NCBI GenBank assembly: GCA_016215705.1
Contig: JACRIR010000012.1
Span: forward strand, 1-7,511
From: Candidatus Poribacteria bacterium
GTDB taxonomy: Bacteria > Abyssobacteria > SURF-5
DNA: 7,511 bases
Direction: 5' to 3'
The notes beneath the pieces were generated by a model. The model was not told the DNA's origin. It made no database searches and saw only the letters and a program-made list of their open reading frames with translations. Below are positions 2,065-7,495 of this stretch, piece by piece. The position numbers and the translations under genes were made by a program. Every line of letters begins with the position of its first letter. The stretch's first letter is position 1.

Positions 2065-4476
2065 GTGAAAAAGTTTCTTATCATCGTTTGCGTCACTTGC
2101 CTCATCATGATAACGGCGGCTTCTGTCGCCTTCTTCTATGGACGCAAAATGTTGGCCGCCTCGCTGCCCCGGATATCCGGCGAATTGTCATTGCCGGGTC
2201 TCTCCAAACAAGTTGAAATCTATCGCGACGAATACGGAATACCCCACGTCTATGCTCAGAATGAAGACGACTTGATGTTCGCTGTCGGCTTCGTCTGCGC
2301 GCAAGACCGCCTCTTTCAAATGGACATCATGCGCCGCGCAGCCACCGGCCGGCTGGCGGAAATCTTCGGTGAAAGCATTCTCGAGTCCGACCTGCTGGTG
2401 CGAACGGTTGGATTCGAGCAGATAGCGAAACGCCAACTCACCTATTCTTCTCCCGCGACCCTCGCAATGCTGCGCGCATATTCTAGCGGAGTGAACGCCT
2501 GCGTCGACCGTCTTGACGCCTTGCCACCCGAATTCCGAATGCTCGGATACCGGCCCGAACGCTGGCAGCCGACCGACACACTCGCAATATCGCGATTGCT
2601 CGCGTGGCAGCTTTCTTTCAATTTCGAGAGCGAAATCGTCATGCTCAAGATCGCCGCCAGGCTTGGGCTGCGCCGCGCCCTCGAACTTGGTCCTGCATAT
2701 CCGCCAACAGGGCCTTTCATTGTTCCCGCAGCAATCAGCGAGAATCCGCCCCCAATGCCGGAGGTGGCCGAAGGCGTGCGTCTGCTCGATGCGATTGTCG
2801 GTTCCCCCGGTGGAAGCAACAGTTGGGTGATAGGCCCGTCCTTGTCGAAAAGCAACGCCCCGATTCTTGCAAATGATCCGCACCTGAGCGGCACACGGAT
2901 GCCCTCGCTGTGGTACTATGTCCATCTTGTCGGCGGCGGCTACGATGTTATTGGTGGCCTTGTTCCCGGCACTCCGCTCCCCATGCTTGGGCACAACCGC
3001 AGAATCGGTTGGGGCCTGACCAACATGACTGCCGATATCCAGGACCTGTTCATCGAGCGTCTGAACCCGCAAGACCTCAAAGAGTACGAGTATGACGGCA
3101 GATGGGTTGAGATGGATACAAGAACCGAGCGCATCTCGTTCCGCGTGGCCAAACGCAAACTCTCGTATATCGAAAAAGAAATCAAACGCACGATACATGG
3201 CCCGCTCTTGAACGACATTGTCCCCGGTGTGGCTGACGCGATCAGCTTGAGCTGGACCGGCTTTGAGCCCACTCTCGAGTTCGAGAGCTTGCCCGCTATC
3301 AGTAGGGCCGGGAATTGGAGCGAGTTCTGCCTCGCGCTCAGCAAGTTCGGGGTTGCGCCGCAAAATTTCATCTATGCCGACGTTGATGGGAACATCGGAT
3401 ACTATGGCGCAGGGATCGTTCCCATCCGCTCCACCGGGATCGGAATATATCCGCTGAAGGGGTGGACAAGCGAGACCGCATGGAAAGGATTCATTCCTTT
3501 TGAAGAGATGCCCCACGTTTTGAATCCGATTGAAGGCTTTATTGTCACTGCCAACAACCGGGTAATCGGAAGCGAATACAACCGCTTCCTGGGGGCCGAG
3601 TGGGCCCCGAGGTTCCGCTACGAGAGGATAGAGGAACTTATCAAGGCGCAAGACAAGCACGATTCGCAGGATATTGCGCAAATGCAGGGCGACTCAACGT
3701 CGCTACTCGCAAAGTTGGTCTGCGAAAGCATCCTGCCGGCTCTCGAAAACCTGCCCGATCAGACGTCGCGCGAAGCGGTCATGCGTCTTAAAGAATGGAA
3801 TTTCGACAACTCTGCCGACAGTGTCGCGGCCACCATTTACCACGAGTTCTTCCTGAAATTCACCATGAACACGTTTGTCGATGAAATGGGGGAGGAGTTG
3901 GCCAAGGAATATCTTGAAGACTACTACTTGTGGCTCGAAAGGTTTGTTTCGCTCATGCAGGATGGGTCGCGCTGGTTCGATGACGTTCGCACCGAAAAGA
4001 TCGAGACAAGGGACGACATGGCTGCCAGAAGCTTTCAGCAGGCCGTTTCAACGCTCGAGGAAAAACTGGGAAGCGATATCTCAAAATGGCGATGGGGTCG
4101 CATGCACACCGTGGAACTCCGCCATCCGCTCGATCGCAACCGGATCGTTAAAGCGCTGTTTAATATGGGGCCATTTCCGTTTCCGGGCGATGGCGAAACA
4201 ATAAATCGGGCCACCTTCGATTTCAATCAGCCGTATCTTGTGACCATGACCGCTTCAATCAGGCACATCATGGATTTCTCGCACGTGCAGAACACCCTCG
4301 GGATTCACACAAGCGGACAATCCGGCAATCCCTCAAGCCACCACTACTCCGATCTCTCCCAGAAGTGGCTCAAAGGTGAATACATACATTTGATGATGGA
4401 CCGGGAAGATTTTTCCGAAGGAGTCGAAGGGCGCCTAATCTTGAAACCCGTACACCATGTGACACGGCGAGATTAA
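2065..4476 (+). CDS. Penicillin-acylase-family (peptidase S45) amidohydrolase, membrane-anchored or exported
   Basis: This 803-residue protein has the usual length of S45 penicillin acylases, Ntn hydrolases that cleave amide bonds of penicillins, acyl-homoserine lactones or other N-acyl compounds after self-processing into two chains. Residues 3-24 form a hydrophobic signal peptide or anchor. The A-chain signature is clear (IYRDEYGIPHVYAQNEDDLMFAVGF near 52-76, CAQDRLFQMDIMRR at 78-91). The nucleophile motif GGSNSW spans 249-254, with S251 (codon 2815-2817) the expected new N-terminus of the B chain; LANDPHL follows at 268-274. YADVDGNIGYYGAG (437-450), TANNR (495-499) and SGNPSSHHYSDLSQKW near the C-terminus are also family hallmarks. 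The GTG start at 2065 follows AGGGA (2052-2056, 8-nt gap) and yields a clean MKK signal. No key residue is missing, so it looks active; the natural substrate cannot be read from sequence. It is divergent to another Ntn-type gene. Confidence 0.93.
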   Translation: MKKFLIIVCVTCLIMITAASVAFFYGRKMLAASLPRISGELSLPGLSKQVEIYRDEYGIPHVYAQNEDDLMFAVGFVCAQDRLFQMDIMRRAATGRLAEIFGESILESDLLVRTVGFEQIAKRQLTYSSPATLAMLRAYSSGVNACVDRLDALPPEFRMLGYRPERWQPTDTLAISRLLAWQLSFNFESEIVMLKIAARLGLRRALELGPAYPPTGPFIVPAAISENPPPMPEVAEGVRLLDAIVGSPGGSNSWVIGPSLSKSNAPILANDPHLSGTRMPSLWYYVHLVGGGYDVIGGLVPGTPLPMLGHNRRIGWGLTNMTADIQDLFIERLNPQDLKEYEYDGRWVEMDTRTERISFRVAKRKLSYIEKEIKRTIHGPLLNDIVPGVADAISLSWTGFEPTLEFESLPAISRAGNWSEFCLALSKFGVAPQNFIYADVDGNIGYYGAGIVPIRSTGIGIYPLKGWTSETAWKGFIPFEEMPHVLNPIEGFIVTANNRVIGSEYNRFLGAEWAPRFRYERIEELIKAQDKHDSQDIAQMQGDSTSLLAKLVCESILPALENLPDQTSREAVMRLKEWNFDNSADSVAATIYHEFFLKFTMNTFVDEMGEELAKEYLEDYYLWLERFVSLMQDGSRWFDDVRTEKIETRDDMAARSFQQAVSTLEEKLGSDISKWRWGRMHTVELRHPLDRNRIVKALFNMGPFPFPGDGETINRATFDFNQPYLVTMTASIRHIMDFSHVQNTLGIHTSGQSGNPSSHHYSDLSQKWLKGEYIHLMMDREDFSEGVEGRLILKPVHHVTRRD

Positions 4477-4663: not shown

Positions 4664-5794
4664 ATGAAAACGAAAGCATCGACAGGCGATTACTTCAGAA
4701 ACATCCTTCAAACTCGAACCGACTATCTCCGCGATTTCAAGAAGCGAACCGGCAAGAAGATATTCGGATGCTTTTGCAGCTACACGCCCGAGGAACTCCT
4801 TCACGCAGCAGGCATTCATCCGGTGCGCCTCTTTGGCGGGACCGAGGACATAACTCAGGCCGACACCTTGATGCAAAGCTTCGTTTGCCCGTTTGTGCGA
4901 GGTGTGCTCGACACCGCTCTCAAAGGCGGATTCGACTATCTCGACGGAATCGTGCACGCCTACACGTGCGACGCAACGTGCGGCCTCTTCGGCATCTGGC
5001 AACGCAACATAAAAACCAAGTTCACATATATGTTCTCGCCGCCATATTTCCTGAGCGAAGGCTCTTTGCGTTATCTTGTCAGAGAGCTTAACGCGCTCAG
5101 AAACGCTCTCGAAAAACATTTACAGACTCAAATAACCGACGAATCAATATCGGAAAGCATCGAGCTGTACAACCGCAGGCGCTCTGTATTGAAAAGACTA
5201 TATGGGTTGCGGGCGGCCAATCCCGTTCCCATCTCGGGAAGCGAAACGCTCGAGGTCGTCCTTGCGGGCGCTCTCATGCCGGCCGATGAGTTCTCGGATG
5301 CAGTGGAATCACTCATCCCCGAGATTCTGCGACCGGTCGGATGCGGCCAGGACTCTCATCGCGTGTTCATCTCGGGCAGCGAATTGCACGATCCGGAGAT
5401 TCTCAGGGTCATTGAAGAGGCGGGCGCTACAATAGTCGGCGACGACCTTTGCACCGGCGCCAGAAGCTTCTTCGATCTTGTCGGGCCCGACGGAAATCCC
5501 CTCGAAACGCTTGCGCGTCGCTACATTTCGCGCACACCCTGTCCCAGCCGTTTGCCTGCAAAACGCAGACTTGAGTTTATCCTCGACGGCATGCGCGATA
5601 GCCGGGCCCAATCCCTCATTTTCATAATACAAAAGTTCTGCGATCCCCATCTTGCAGAACAGCCTTTCCTCAGCGAAAAATTGAAAGCGGCCGGCATCCC
5701 CAACATGGTCCTCGAGGTGGAACACCGTCTTGGCCCCAGCCGCGAACAAATCCGCACTCGAGTCCAGGGCTTCCTTGAAATGCTCGAGCACTGA
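4664..5794 (+). CDS. 2-hydroxyacyl-CoA dehydratase-family subunit (HgdB/BcrB-type), orphan
   Basis: The 376-residue protein matches the Fe-S component of 2-hydroxyacyl-CoA dehydratases and benzoyl-CoA reductases. These enzymes use a low-potential electron from an ATP-dependent activator to remove water from, or reduce, CoA thioesters in anaerobes. Visible signatures are FGCFCSYTPEELLHAAG (34-50), HPVRLFGG, FVCPFVRG (73-80), YTCDATCG (100-107), GDDLCTGARS (259-268) and KFCDPH (324-329). Nine cysteines are present; C38, C75, C102, C263 and C326 lie in motifs conserved in the family and are the likely cluster ligands. It is cytoplasmic, with no signal peptide. The ATG at 4664 follows GGGGA (4655-4659) at a short 4-nt gap, so the site is modest. 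Such proteins usually work as a two-subunit pair plus activator, none of which is here. It may pair with subunits encoded elsewhere or be a stand-alone type such as the YjiM or double-cubane-cluster proteins. The substrate is unknown. Confidence 0.88.
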   Translation: MKTKASTGDYFRNILQTRTDYLRDFKKRTGKKIFGCFCSYTPEELLHAAGIHPVRLFGGTEDITQADTLMQSFVCPFVRGVLDTALKGGFDYLDGIVHAYTCDATCGLFGIWQRNIKTKFTYMFSPPYFLSEGSLRYLVRELNALRNALEKHLQTQITDESISESIELYNRRRSVLKRLYGLRAANPVPISGSETLEVVLAGALMPADEFSDAVESLIPEILRPVGCGQDSHRVFISGSELHDPEILRVIEEAGATIVGDDLCTGARSFFDLVGPDGNPLETLARRYISRTPCPSRLPAKRRLEFILDGMRDSRAQSLIFIIQKFCDPHLAEQPFLSEKLKAAGIPNMVLEVEHRLGPSREQIRTRVQGFLEMLEH

Positions 5795-5933: not shown

Positions 5934-6596
5934 TCAGTCCGCCAGATCTATATTCGTTCGCGGCGTGGCCACAACATCCATATAGAGGATAGCCTCATCC
6001 TCATTGCGCACCGCTCCCAACATTATGCTGAAAGGCTTTATTCCAAAATCGCTCTGTTTGAACCGGAGTGACGCCTGGCCGCGGAGTTCCTCCCCTTTAT
6101 CACTCACCGTCACGGGAAACGACACCGACCTCTTCACTCCATGAATCGTCAGTTCACCGCTGACAATGTACTTCCCGTCGGATTCCTTTTCTACTTTCGT
6201 CGACTGAAACTTCATTTTCGGAAATCTCGCAACATCCAATTGCTCCGCCGATTCCATTGTTGCCTGAATCTTCTTGCGGTCCTTGTCGCTCACGACTTCA
6301 GTCAGCCCGTACTTCTGGCGAACCGCAGGCTCATCCACTTGCAGCGAATCGGCGCGAGTCTCGACCGACATCGACGTCGCCGATGGGAACTCGGGATCGA
6401 AGCTGGTGCCGCCCGAGAAGTCGGTTGCGCGGATCACGTGATTGTGCGCGAATGCCGCCGCGACCCCGCCCCTGAACAGCCGCACAACCAACTCGCTCTT
6501 GGCGGGATCAATCACATACTGCGCGGCCATTGCCGGACGCGGAATCGCCATTAGTGACACCACGATAGCAAATCCGATGCGTACAAGCTTCAGCAC
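5934..6596 (-). CDS. YceI-family periplasmic protein
   Basis: The 220-residue product has a Sec signal peptide (LVRIGFAIVVSLMAIPRPAMA, cleavage after AMA near residue 24) and a mature domain of about 196 residues. It starts AQYVIDPAKSELVVRLFRGG and continues with FAHNHVIRATDFSGG, FPKMKFQSTKV, VSGELTIHGVKRSVSFPV and KQSDFGIKPFSIMLGAVRNEDEAILYMDV. These are the strands of the YceI lipocalin-like barrel, whose studied members bind isoprenoid lipids; some genomes link the family to acid or osmotic stress. The domain looks complete. The frame extends upstream to another GTG at 6638, but I place the start at the GTG at 6596: GAGGAG sits 6 nt upstream (6603-6608) and this start puts the signal peptide at the N-terminus. 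The extra 14 residues of the longer form would spoil it. The gene is convergent with the dehydratase gene. The ligand is unknown and I see no clear promoter. Confidence 0.9.
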   Translation of the reverse strand: MLKLVRIGFAIVVSLMAIPRPAMAAQYVIDPAKSELVVRLFRGGVAAAFAHNHVIRATDFSGGTSFDPEFPSATSMSVETRADSLQVDEPAVRQKYGLTEVVSDKDRKKIQATMESAEQLDVARFPKMKFQSTKVEKESDGKYIVSGELTIHGVKRSVSFPVTVSDKGEELRGQASLRFKQSDFGIKPFSIMLGAVRNEDEAILYMDVVATPRTNIDLAD

Positions 6597-6729
6597 GATC
6601 AACTCCTCGATCTCCGAGACACAGCCAAATCGATTCACATTCAGGACAAATCAAATTCGCATGTCTTATGCTATTATTTCACGCATTCCCCGATCCGGCC
6701 ATACATATCGGCTCGAAGCTTCCCCATCA

Positions 6730-7123: not shown

Positions 7124-7324
7124 TTACAGCTTCACAACGTTCTCTGCCTTCAGGCCCTTTGGGCCCTGGACCGTGTCGAAACGAACGCGGTCGTTCTCCG
7201 AAAGGGTCTTGAAGCCACCTCCCTGAATGGATGTATGGTGGACGAACACGTCCGGCCCATTATCCTGGGTAATGAACCCAAAACCTTTCTGATCATTGAA
7301 CCACTTTACTGTTCCTTCTGCCAA
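7124..7324 (-). CDS. Cold-shock domain protein, CspA family
   Basis: The 66-residue product is a complete single cold-shock domain of standard family length. It has the opening GTVKWFN (4-10), RNP1 KGFGFI (13-18) and RNP2 VFVHHT (26-31), whose aromatic residues stack on single-stranded RNA or DNA. Such proteins act in the cytoplasm as RNA chaperones, melt hairpins and can act as transcription antiterminators. The start is TTG at 7324, supported by an unusually long ribosome-binding site (7331-7341) and by the MAEGTVKWF alignment. The gene is monocistronic, with its own promoter (7467-7495), leader, leader terminator (7373-7410) and 3' terminator (7063-7096). The leader architecture suggests attenuation, perhaps by the protein itself. 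Paralogues are common in bacteria, so I give no specific csp letter and cannot say whether this copy is cold-induced. Confidence 0.96.
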
Positions 7325-7330
7325 CTCTTT

Positions 7331-7341
7331 TCACCTCCTTA
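7331..7341 (-). promoter_or_regulatory. Extended Shine-Dalgarno site of the cold-shock gene
   Basis: TAAGGAGGTGA on the minus strand is an 11-nt exact complement of the usual 16S rRNA 3' end, 6 nt before the TTG start. It fixes the rare TTG as the initiation codon and may compensate for it. Confidence 0.9.
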
Positions 7342-7372
7342 GCTGAAATCTTCGGGTAAGGCATCTTCACAT

Positions 7373-7410
7373 AAAAAAATCCGCAAGAGCGGACCAAAAC
7401 TCTTACGGAT
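7373..7410 (-). terminator. Leader terminator (possible attenuator) upstream of the cold-shock gene
   Basis: On the minus strand ATCCGTAAGAG (7410-7400) pairs with CTCTTGCGGAT (7389-7379): 11 bp with one G-U pair and a 10-nt loop. Six further Ts follow (7378-7373). It lies between the promoter and the coding start, so it would end most transcripts at about 85-90 nt unless overridden. A rival helix is possible: TTCGCAAAGAG (7446-7436) can pair with the terminator 3' arm over ten base pairs with one bulged A. The alternative reading is the end of a separate short RNA. Confidence 0.75.
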
Positions 7411-7466
7411 CTGAGCGGACGGCTTTACGAACTAACTCTTTGCGAAGAGCTTTACTCTCGGAAAGA

Positions 7467-7495
7467 ATTTTAGCACAGGCGCCGCAGTTTGTCAA
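7467..7495 (-). promoter_or_regulatory. Sigma70-type promoter of the cold-shock gene
   Basis: On the minus strand TTGACA (7495-7490), a 17-nt spacer and TAAAAT (7472-7467) form a near-consensus promoter, and TGC directly before the -10 box gives an extended -10. Transcription should start near 7460, leaving a leader of about 135 nt. Confidence 0.85.

Follow-up and report, generated by a model that had tools for sequence, protein, structure and literature searches.

The leaders of cold-shock protein (csp) mRNAs, such as that of Escherichia coli cspA, are the textbook example of RNA thermosensors, which control translation and mRNA decay. The E. coli cspA 5' UTR, represented in Rfam by RF01766 (cspA thermoregulator), resembles the leader described here in being a structured csp mRNA leader with two alternative conformations; however, it acts on translation and stability, unlike the candidate attenuator of Abyssobacteria. 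The thermosensor in the Listeria cspA leader is also short and refolds with temperature, but it does so to expose the ribosome site (PMC8079631), whereas the Abyssobacteria leader has a predicted terminator instead. Csp proteins themselves alter read-through at intrinsic terminators, raising it in some cases and lowering it in others (PMC9765468, PMC11648934, PMC8307031): E. coli CspA, CspC, CspE, and CspD lower intrinsic termination, according to PMC11648934 (citing Bae 2000) and PMC9765468, and Bacillus subtilis CspB and CspD favor termination at several sites (PMC8307031). A reference title in PMC7858274 records an E. coli Csp as negatively regulating the transcription of cspA, and a relative of the Csp discussed below, PDB entry 3i2z, is named accordingly. 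The targets of Csp proteins in E. coli and B. subtilis are other genes, whereas the terminator predicted here sits in the csp leader itself. Finally, riboswitch-, trp-, and PyrR-type attenuators with an anti-antiterminator place the same set of mutually exclusive helices (1:2, 2:3, and 3:4) before a gene; the Abyssobacteria leader differs from these in lacking a leader peptide, a known aptamer, or an Rfam class and in serving csp genes only. Our search of the open-access literature, which did not cover subscription papers, found no precedent for a terminator/antiterminator switch in a csp leader.

The window, i.e., the whole stretch of 7,511 nucleotides that was analyzed, carries on its minus strand a csp gene whose product matches the cold-shock domain PF00313 (E 5.2e-27) and has CspB proteins as its closest solved relatives (structure search, E 1.8e-22). 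Other genes of the window encode a penicillin amidase family protein (2065-4476), a 2-hydroxyglutaryl-CoA dehydratase D-component family protein (4664-5794), and a YceI-like protein (5934-6638). The extended -10 promoter originally proposed ahead of the cold-shock gene is borne out, with TTGACA (7495-7490), a 17-nt spacer, and TG ahead of TAAAAT (7472-7467), together matching 11 of 12 consensus bases. RNA predicted to start at ~7460 would have a leader of ~135 nt up to the TTG at 7324; this leader folds more stably than its own dinucleotide shuffles (z -3.0) and holds, as had been claimed, a hairpin (7412-7377, stem of 12-14 pairs) followed by a T-run. From promoter to gene, the features, all on the minus strand, are the following:

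7490-7495, minus strand: -35 hexamer TTGACA, conserved in 12/12 homologous leaders
7467-7472, minus strand: extended -10 hexamer TAAAAT; a -10-like hexamer at about equal distance from S1 in 12/12 leaders
7454-7459, minus strand: S1 (GAGAGT; RNA GAGAGU), 5' strand of hairpin H1 and putative anti-antiterminator at the predicted RNA 5' end (alignment columns 2-7)
7445-7453, minus strand: S2 (AAAGCTCTT; RNA AAAGCUCUU), predicted switching strand, with S1 (via 7450-7445) or S3 as partner (12-leader alignment)
7412-7438, minus strand: P2 region, a hairpin of variable sequence (GAG...CTC) nested within the antiterminator helix (predicted folds, most leaders)
7399-7410, minus strand: terminator 5' arm, with 12 pairs in the alignment (98.6% of cells paired)
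7396-7404, minus strand: S3 core (AAGAGTTTT; RNA AAGAGUUUU), terminator 5' arm and first loop bases (alignment, column shuffles, pairing probability)
7379-7390, minus strand: S4, terminator 3' arm (hairpin prediction, alignment)
7373-7379, minus strand: T-run, where the short terminated RNA is predicted to end (match of model R1, 7460-7373)
7332-7340, minus strand: Shine-Dalgarno site AAGGAGGTG (read directly)
7124-7324, minus strand: csp gene, CspA-family cold-shock domain protein of 66 aa with a TTG start (ORF; PF00313; CspB-type structures)

For comparison, we used three genomes of Candidatus Abyssobacteria, each of which has five csp genes, four of them close relatives and one divergent. 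All 12 close copies share the promoter layout and the leader, which aligns over 92 columns. In every case, an intrinsic terminator is predicted downstream of the promoter and ahead of the start codon, and a comparable GGAGGTGA Shine-Dalgarno site lies at the same place. R1, a covariance model of this leader, matched exactly four times in each of the three genomes, always ahead of csp; it matched nothing in 383 other genomes and no cold-regulon gene other than csp. The 12 leaders are not independent, as only three genomes, all of one family, carry them. They share no start codon or ORF of the kind that leader-peptide attenuation would require, and downstream of the terminator they share no structure sequestering the Shine-Dalgarno sequence. 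The original prediction had recognized no named riboswitch class, in agreement with our Rfam scans, in which no family reached its gathering score in the window or in the 12 leaders; RF01766 scored 28.8 bits in the window against a cut-off of 78, over the coding region, and reached its gathering score in 0/12 leaders.

The divergent fifth paralogues (L005, L041, and L042) have different leaders, which also contain terminator hairpins, so every csp gene found in the phylum has a leader terminator. We considered and rejected the same switch for these three, given that a consistent S2:S3 helix is absent from them.

The aligned leaders contain helices that compete for the same strands. The terminator, S3:S4 (H3), is paired in 98.6% of cells and includes two pairs with compensatory changes on both sides. 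At the predicted 5' end, S1 and S2 form hairpin H1 (7459-7454/7450-7445), paired in 91.7% of cells. S2 is also complementary to S3 over 9 bp (H4; 7453-7445 with 7404-7396), again with 91.7% of cells paired, compared with 35-61% when one strand is slid against the other. Consequently, H1 and H4 compete for S2, and S3 can pair either with S2, forming the putative antiterminator, or, in part, with S4. The sequence that separates S2 from S3 has a mean pairwise identity of only 0.41, yet a small hairpin is nested there in most folds. In nearly all leaders, S1 is similar in sequence to S3, and S2 to S4.

This arrangement departs from the one first proposed. The first leader hairpin had been placed at 7449-7445/7440-7436, which can be drawn, but the conserved 5' hairpin is H1. 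The segment 7436-7446 had been expected to act as an antiterminator by pairing with the terminator 3' arm; the ten pairs are drawable, but 83 of 500 upstream-leader shuffles equaled their -9.6 kcal/mol, and similar duplexes are unremarkable in the other leaders when these are shuffled one by one. Nor is a 3' arm helix conserved, 417 of 1000 column shuffles being as good. On the alignment, the conserved partner of the predicted antiterminator strand is instead the terminator 5' arm plus loop.

The S2:S3 helix fared differently when we shuffled the upstream alignment columns and sought the best helix in a common register with the terminator 5' arm and loop. The 9-bp helix (91.7%) was equaled in 1 of 1000 shuffles and a 7-bp version (97.6%) in 0 of 400, as was the case for 8 and 10 bp (0/400 each); for the duplex of the window itself, 1 of 500 shuffles was as good. 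When the leaders are taken singly, only 4 of the 12 have an S2:S3 duplex better than 95% of shuffles. In the terminator loop, the first half, whose bases pair only in H4, has an identity of 0.73 versus 0.27 for the second half, and the H1-loop bases that are paired in H4 alone are conserved too. The S2 and S3 strands hardly vary, and hence the 12 leaders contain no two-sided covariation in S2:S3. Support for this helix comes from conservation, register, and thermodynamics, which together identify a conserved predicted helix that excludes the terminator. The promoter, the terminator, the conserved mutually exclusive helices, and the restriction to csp are established computationally, and the assignment to the transcription-attenuator class, made originally from the single leader, is backed by the comparison of 12, in which both S2:S3 and the terminator are conserved.

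Folding up to the terminator loop, with S4 absent, gave H4 with a probability of 0.89-1.0 in 11 of 12 leaders at 10, 37, and 60 °C, the exception being L004, in which H4 is weak (0.3-0.5); the probability of S1:S2 in these folds is near zero. Once S4 is included, the terminator probability is near 1 in almost all leaders and S1:S2 tends to return. Judging from these two sets of folds, we expect the RNA to be antiterminated at first and to become terminated only if S4 displaces S2 in time. Since the finished terminator always wins at equilibrium, a switch needs kinetics or a factor. Equilibrium pairing is almost constant between 10 and 60 °C (L007 alone shifts, at 60 °C), and we rejected an equilibrium thermometer because the predicted pairing scarcely differs over this range.

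Collectively, we consider it likely that the leader is a cis-acting, three-strand, csp-specific attenuator with S2:S3 as the antiterminator. Given that the same predicted switch precedes every close csp copy in the phylum, Abyssobacteria probably control Csp production by aborting or completing the message. We infer that termination occurs in the cell, that it is decided by a kinetic race, and that Csp takes part with a particular sign. The 5' end of the nascent RNA would fold as S1:S2 once the polymerase leaves the promoter, and as S3 emerges, S2 is expected to swap onto it. When S4 emerges at the U-tract, it must displace S2 from S3 for the terminator to form, and the freed S2 could rejoin S1; by the layout, the last bases of S4 would reach the unpaired start of S3 only when the polymerase is at the U-tract. 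Strand exchange would compete in time with polymerase escape: if slow, it would lead to read-through and Csp synthesis; if fast, to an aborted RNA of ~88 nt. Ample Csp may speed the exchange, or bind the pyrimidine-rich S2, and so bring about termination as negative autoregulation, and cold or titration of Csp may slow the exchange, so that the gene is read. Csp as the effector is a tentative assignment, to which we give somewhat less than even weight. The sensed signal would most likely be the level of Csp or RNA chaperone, with cold as a modulator, and negative feedback is the favored sign of the effect.

The sign could also be the reverse, with Csp melting the terminator hairpin or keeping S3 single-stranded and thereby promoting its own read-through. 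The anatomy of the leader permits this and the reduced intrinsic termination reported for E. coli CspA, CspC, CspE, and CspD (PMC11648934, citing Bae 2000, and PMC9765468) speaks for it. Against it stand the length of the terminator stem (12-14 pairs), the further brake that four paralogues under positive feedback would need, the preference of B. subtilis CspB and CspD for termination at several sites (PMC8307031), and the record of an E. coli Csp that negatively regulates the transcription of cspA (a reference title in PMC7858274; the name of 3i2z); we think this reading unlikely. Similar doubt attaches to an RNA thermometer acting on transcription, in which temperature alone, with no protein, would set the choice between antiterminator and terminator. 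Cold should indeed slow strand exchange, and csp leaders serve as thermosensors elsewhere, as in the E. coli and Listeria cspA leaders introduced above; those thermosensors, however, act on translation and mRNA stability, and the near-constancy of the equilibrium folds, with H4 before S4 and the terminator after it, argues against temperature as the sole determinant.

Two other readings would dispense with the switch altogether. The best-conserved elements are the terminator and the 5' hairpin, as would be expected of an unregulated partial terminator that lets through a fixed fraction of transcripts from a strong promoter, the 5' hairpin merely protecting the mRNA end, and a hairpin at that position could stabilize the message. 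This would leave unexplained both the match, in one register across 12 leaders, of S2 to S3 with its terminator-loop bases and the reappearance of this logic with different sequences (see below), and we rate it as slightly less probable than either of the preceding readings. Alternatively, two hairpins that share stem words (AAGAGT/ACTCTT) could be paired sites for a protein, Csp or other, with cross-pairing as a by-product. The resemblance of S1 to S3 and of S2 to S4 is what such sites would produce, but conservation extends to the terminator-loop and H1-loop bases whose sole pairing is in H4, and we hold this to be quite improbable.

Leaders with a comparable organization precede csp genes in other lineages. 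In Desulfobacterota (Desulfobaccales, Syntrophobacterales, and Deltaproteobacteria records; loci L076, L080, L083, L086, L101, L112, L131 (~1335-1460), and L145-L155), csp leaders start with GUUUAGCAUGUCAGAC; in folds without the 3' arm, this element is paired to the 5' arm and loop of the terminator (AUGCUAAA). The loci scanned had no Rfam match. All 11 matches of R2, a model of this leader, in four genomes precede cold-shock domain genes; over 386 genomes, none known beforehand to carry the element, R2 had no match. In these leaders, GUUUAGCAUGUCAGAC is also complementary to CUGACUGCU, located after the terminator. In Nitrospirota (L058 and L096; the last ~120 bases before the csp start at position 1501), two islands are conserved, the predicted antiterminator strand GAAGUUUUUG and the terminator (GGCCACAAAGACUUUUA-CUUUGUGGCC, loop ACUUUUA); as long as the 3' arm has yet to emerge, GAAGUUUUUG pairs with the terminator and its loop over some 11-12 bp. 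By these predicted pairings, the Desulfobacterota and Nitrospirota leaders follow the same switch logic as the Abyssobacteria leader, to which they are unrelated in sequence.

Inspection by eye of Desulfuromonadales-type csp leaders (L064, L069, L090, L097, L102, and L123) revealed a 5' GTTTGTGTAAG-like element, with a TTACACA-like complement downstream around terminator-like hairpins, and these leaders possibly represent a further attenuator type. A leader terminator as a universal csp feature was rejected, since it occurs in 2 of 22 csp leaders in diverse phyla and in 19 of 78 in a mostly Desulfobacterota set, compared with 12 of 145 control ORFs for both.

A broader and speculative proposal, which we regard as on balance unlikely, is that the csp leaders of several phyla independently evolved attenuators that gauge RNA-chaperone capacity through the speed of strand replacement, with Csp shortage, through cold or titration, as the on state. 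If so, the leader would measure the protein's own activity, strand exchange. A csp-only attenuator in at least three lineages with unrelated sequences would suggest a second, transcription-level control of RNA chaperones. The two exclusive helices make the putative switch directly testable with purified polymerase and Csp, and a little-known candidate phylum gains a defined candidate regulatory RNA that is absent from Rfam.

The window also contains, at 1965-1995, a palindromic REP-like repeat, TCGGGGACACSATGTCGCATSGTGTCCCCGA, with 176 forward and 158 reverse matches in the genome, counts that may overlap, the repeat being a near-palindrome. It has zero matches in the two related genomes, which suggests a recent expansion in the source genome. 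One copy, at C190:2677, lies just upstream of another csp leader.
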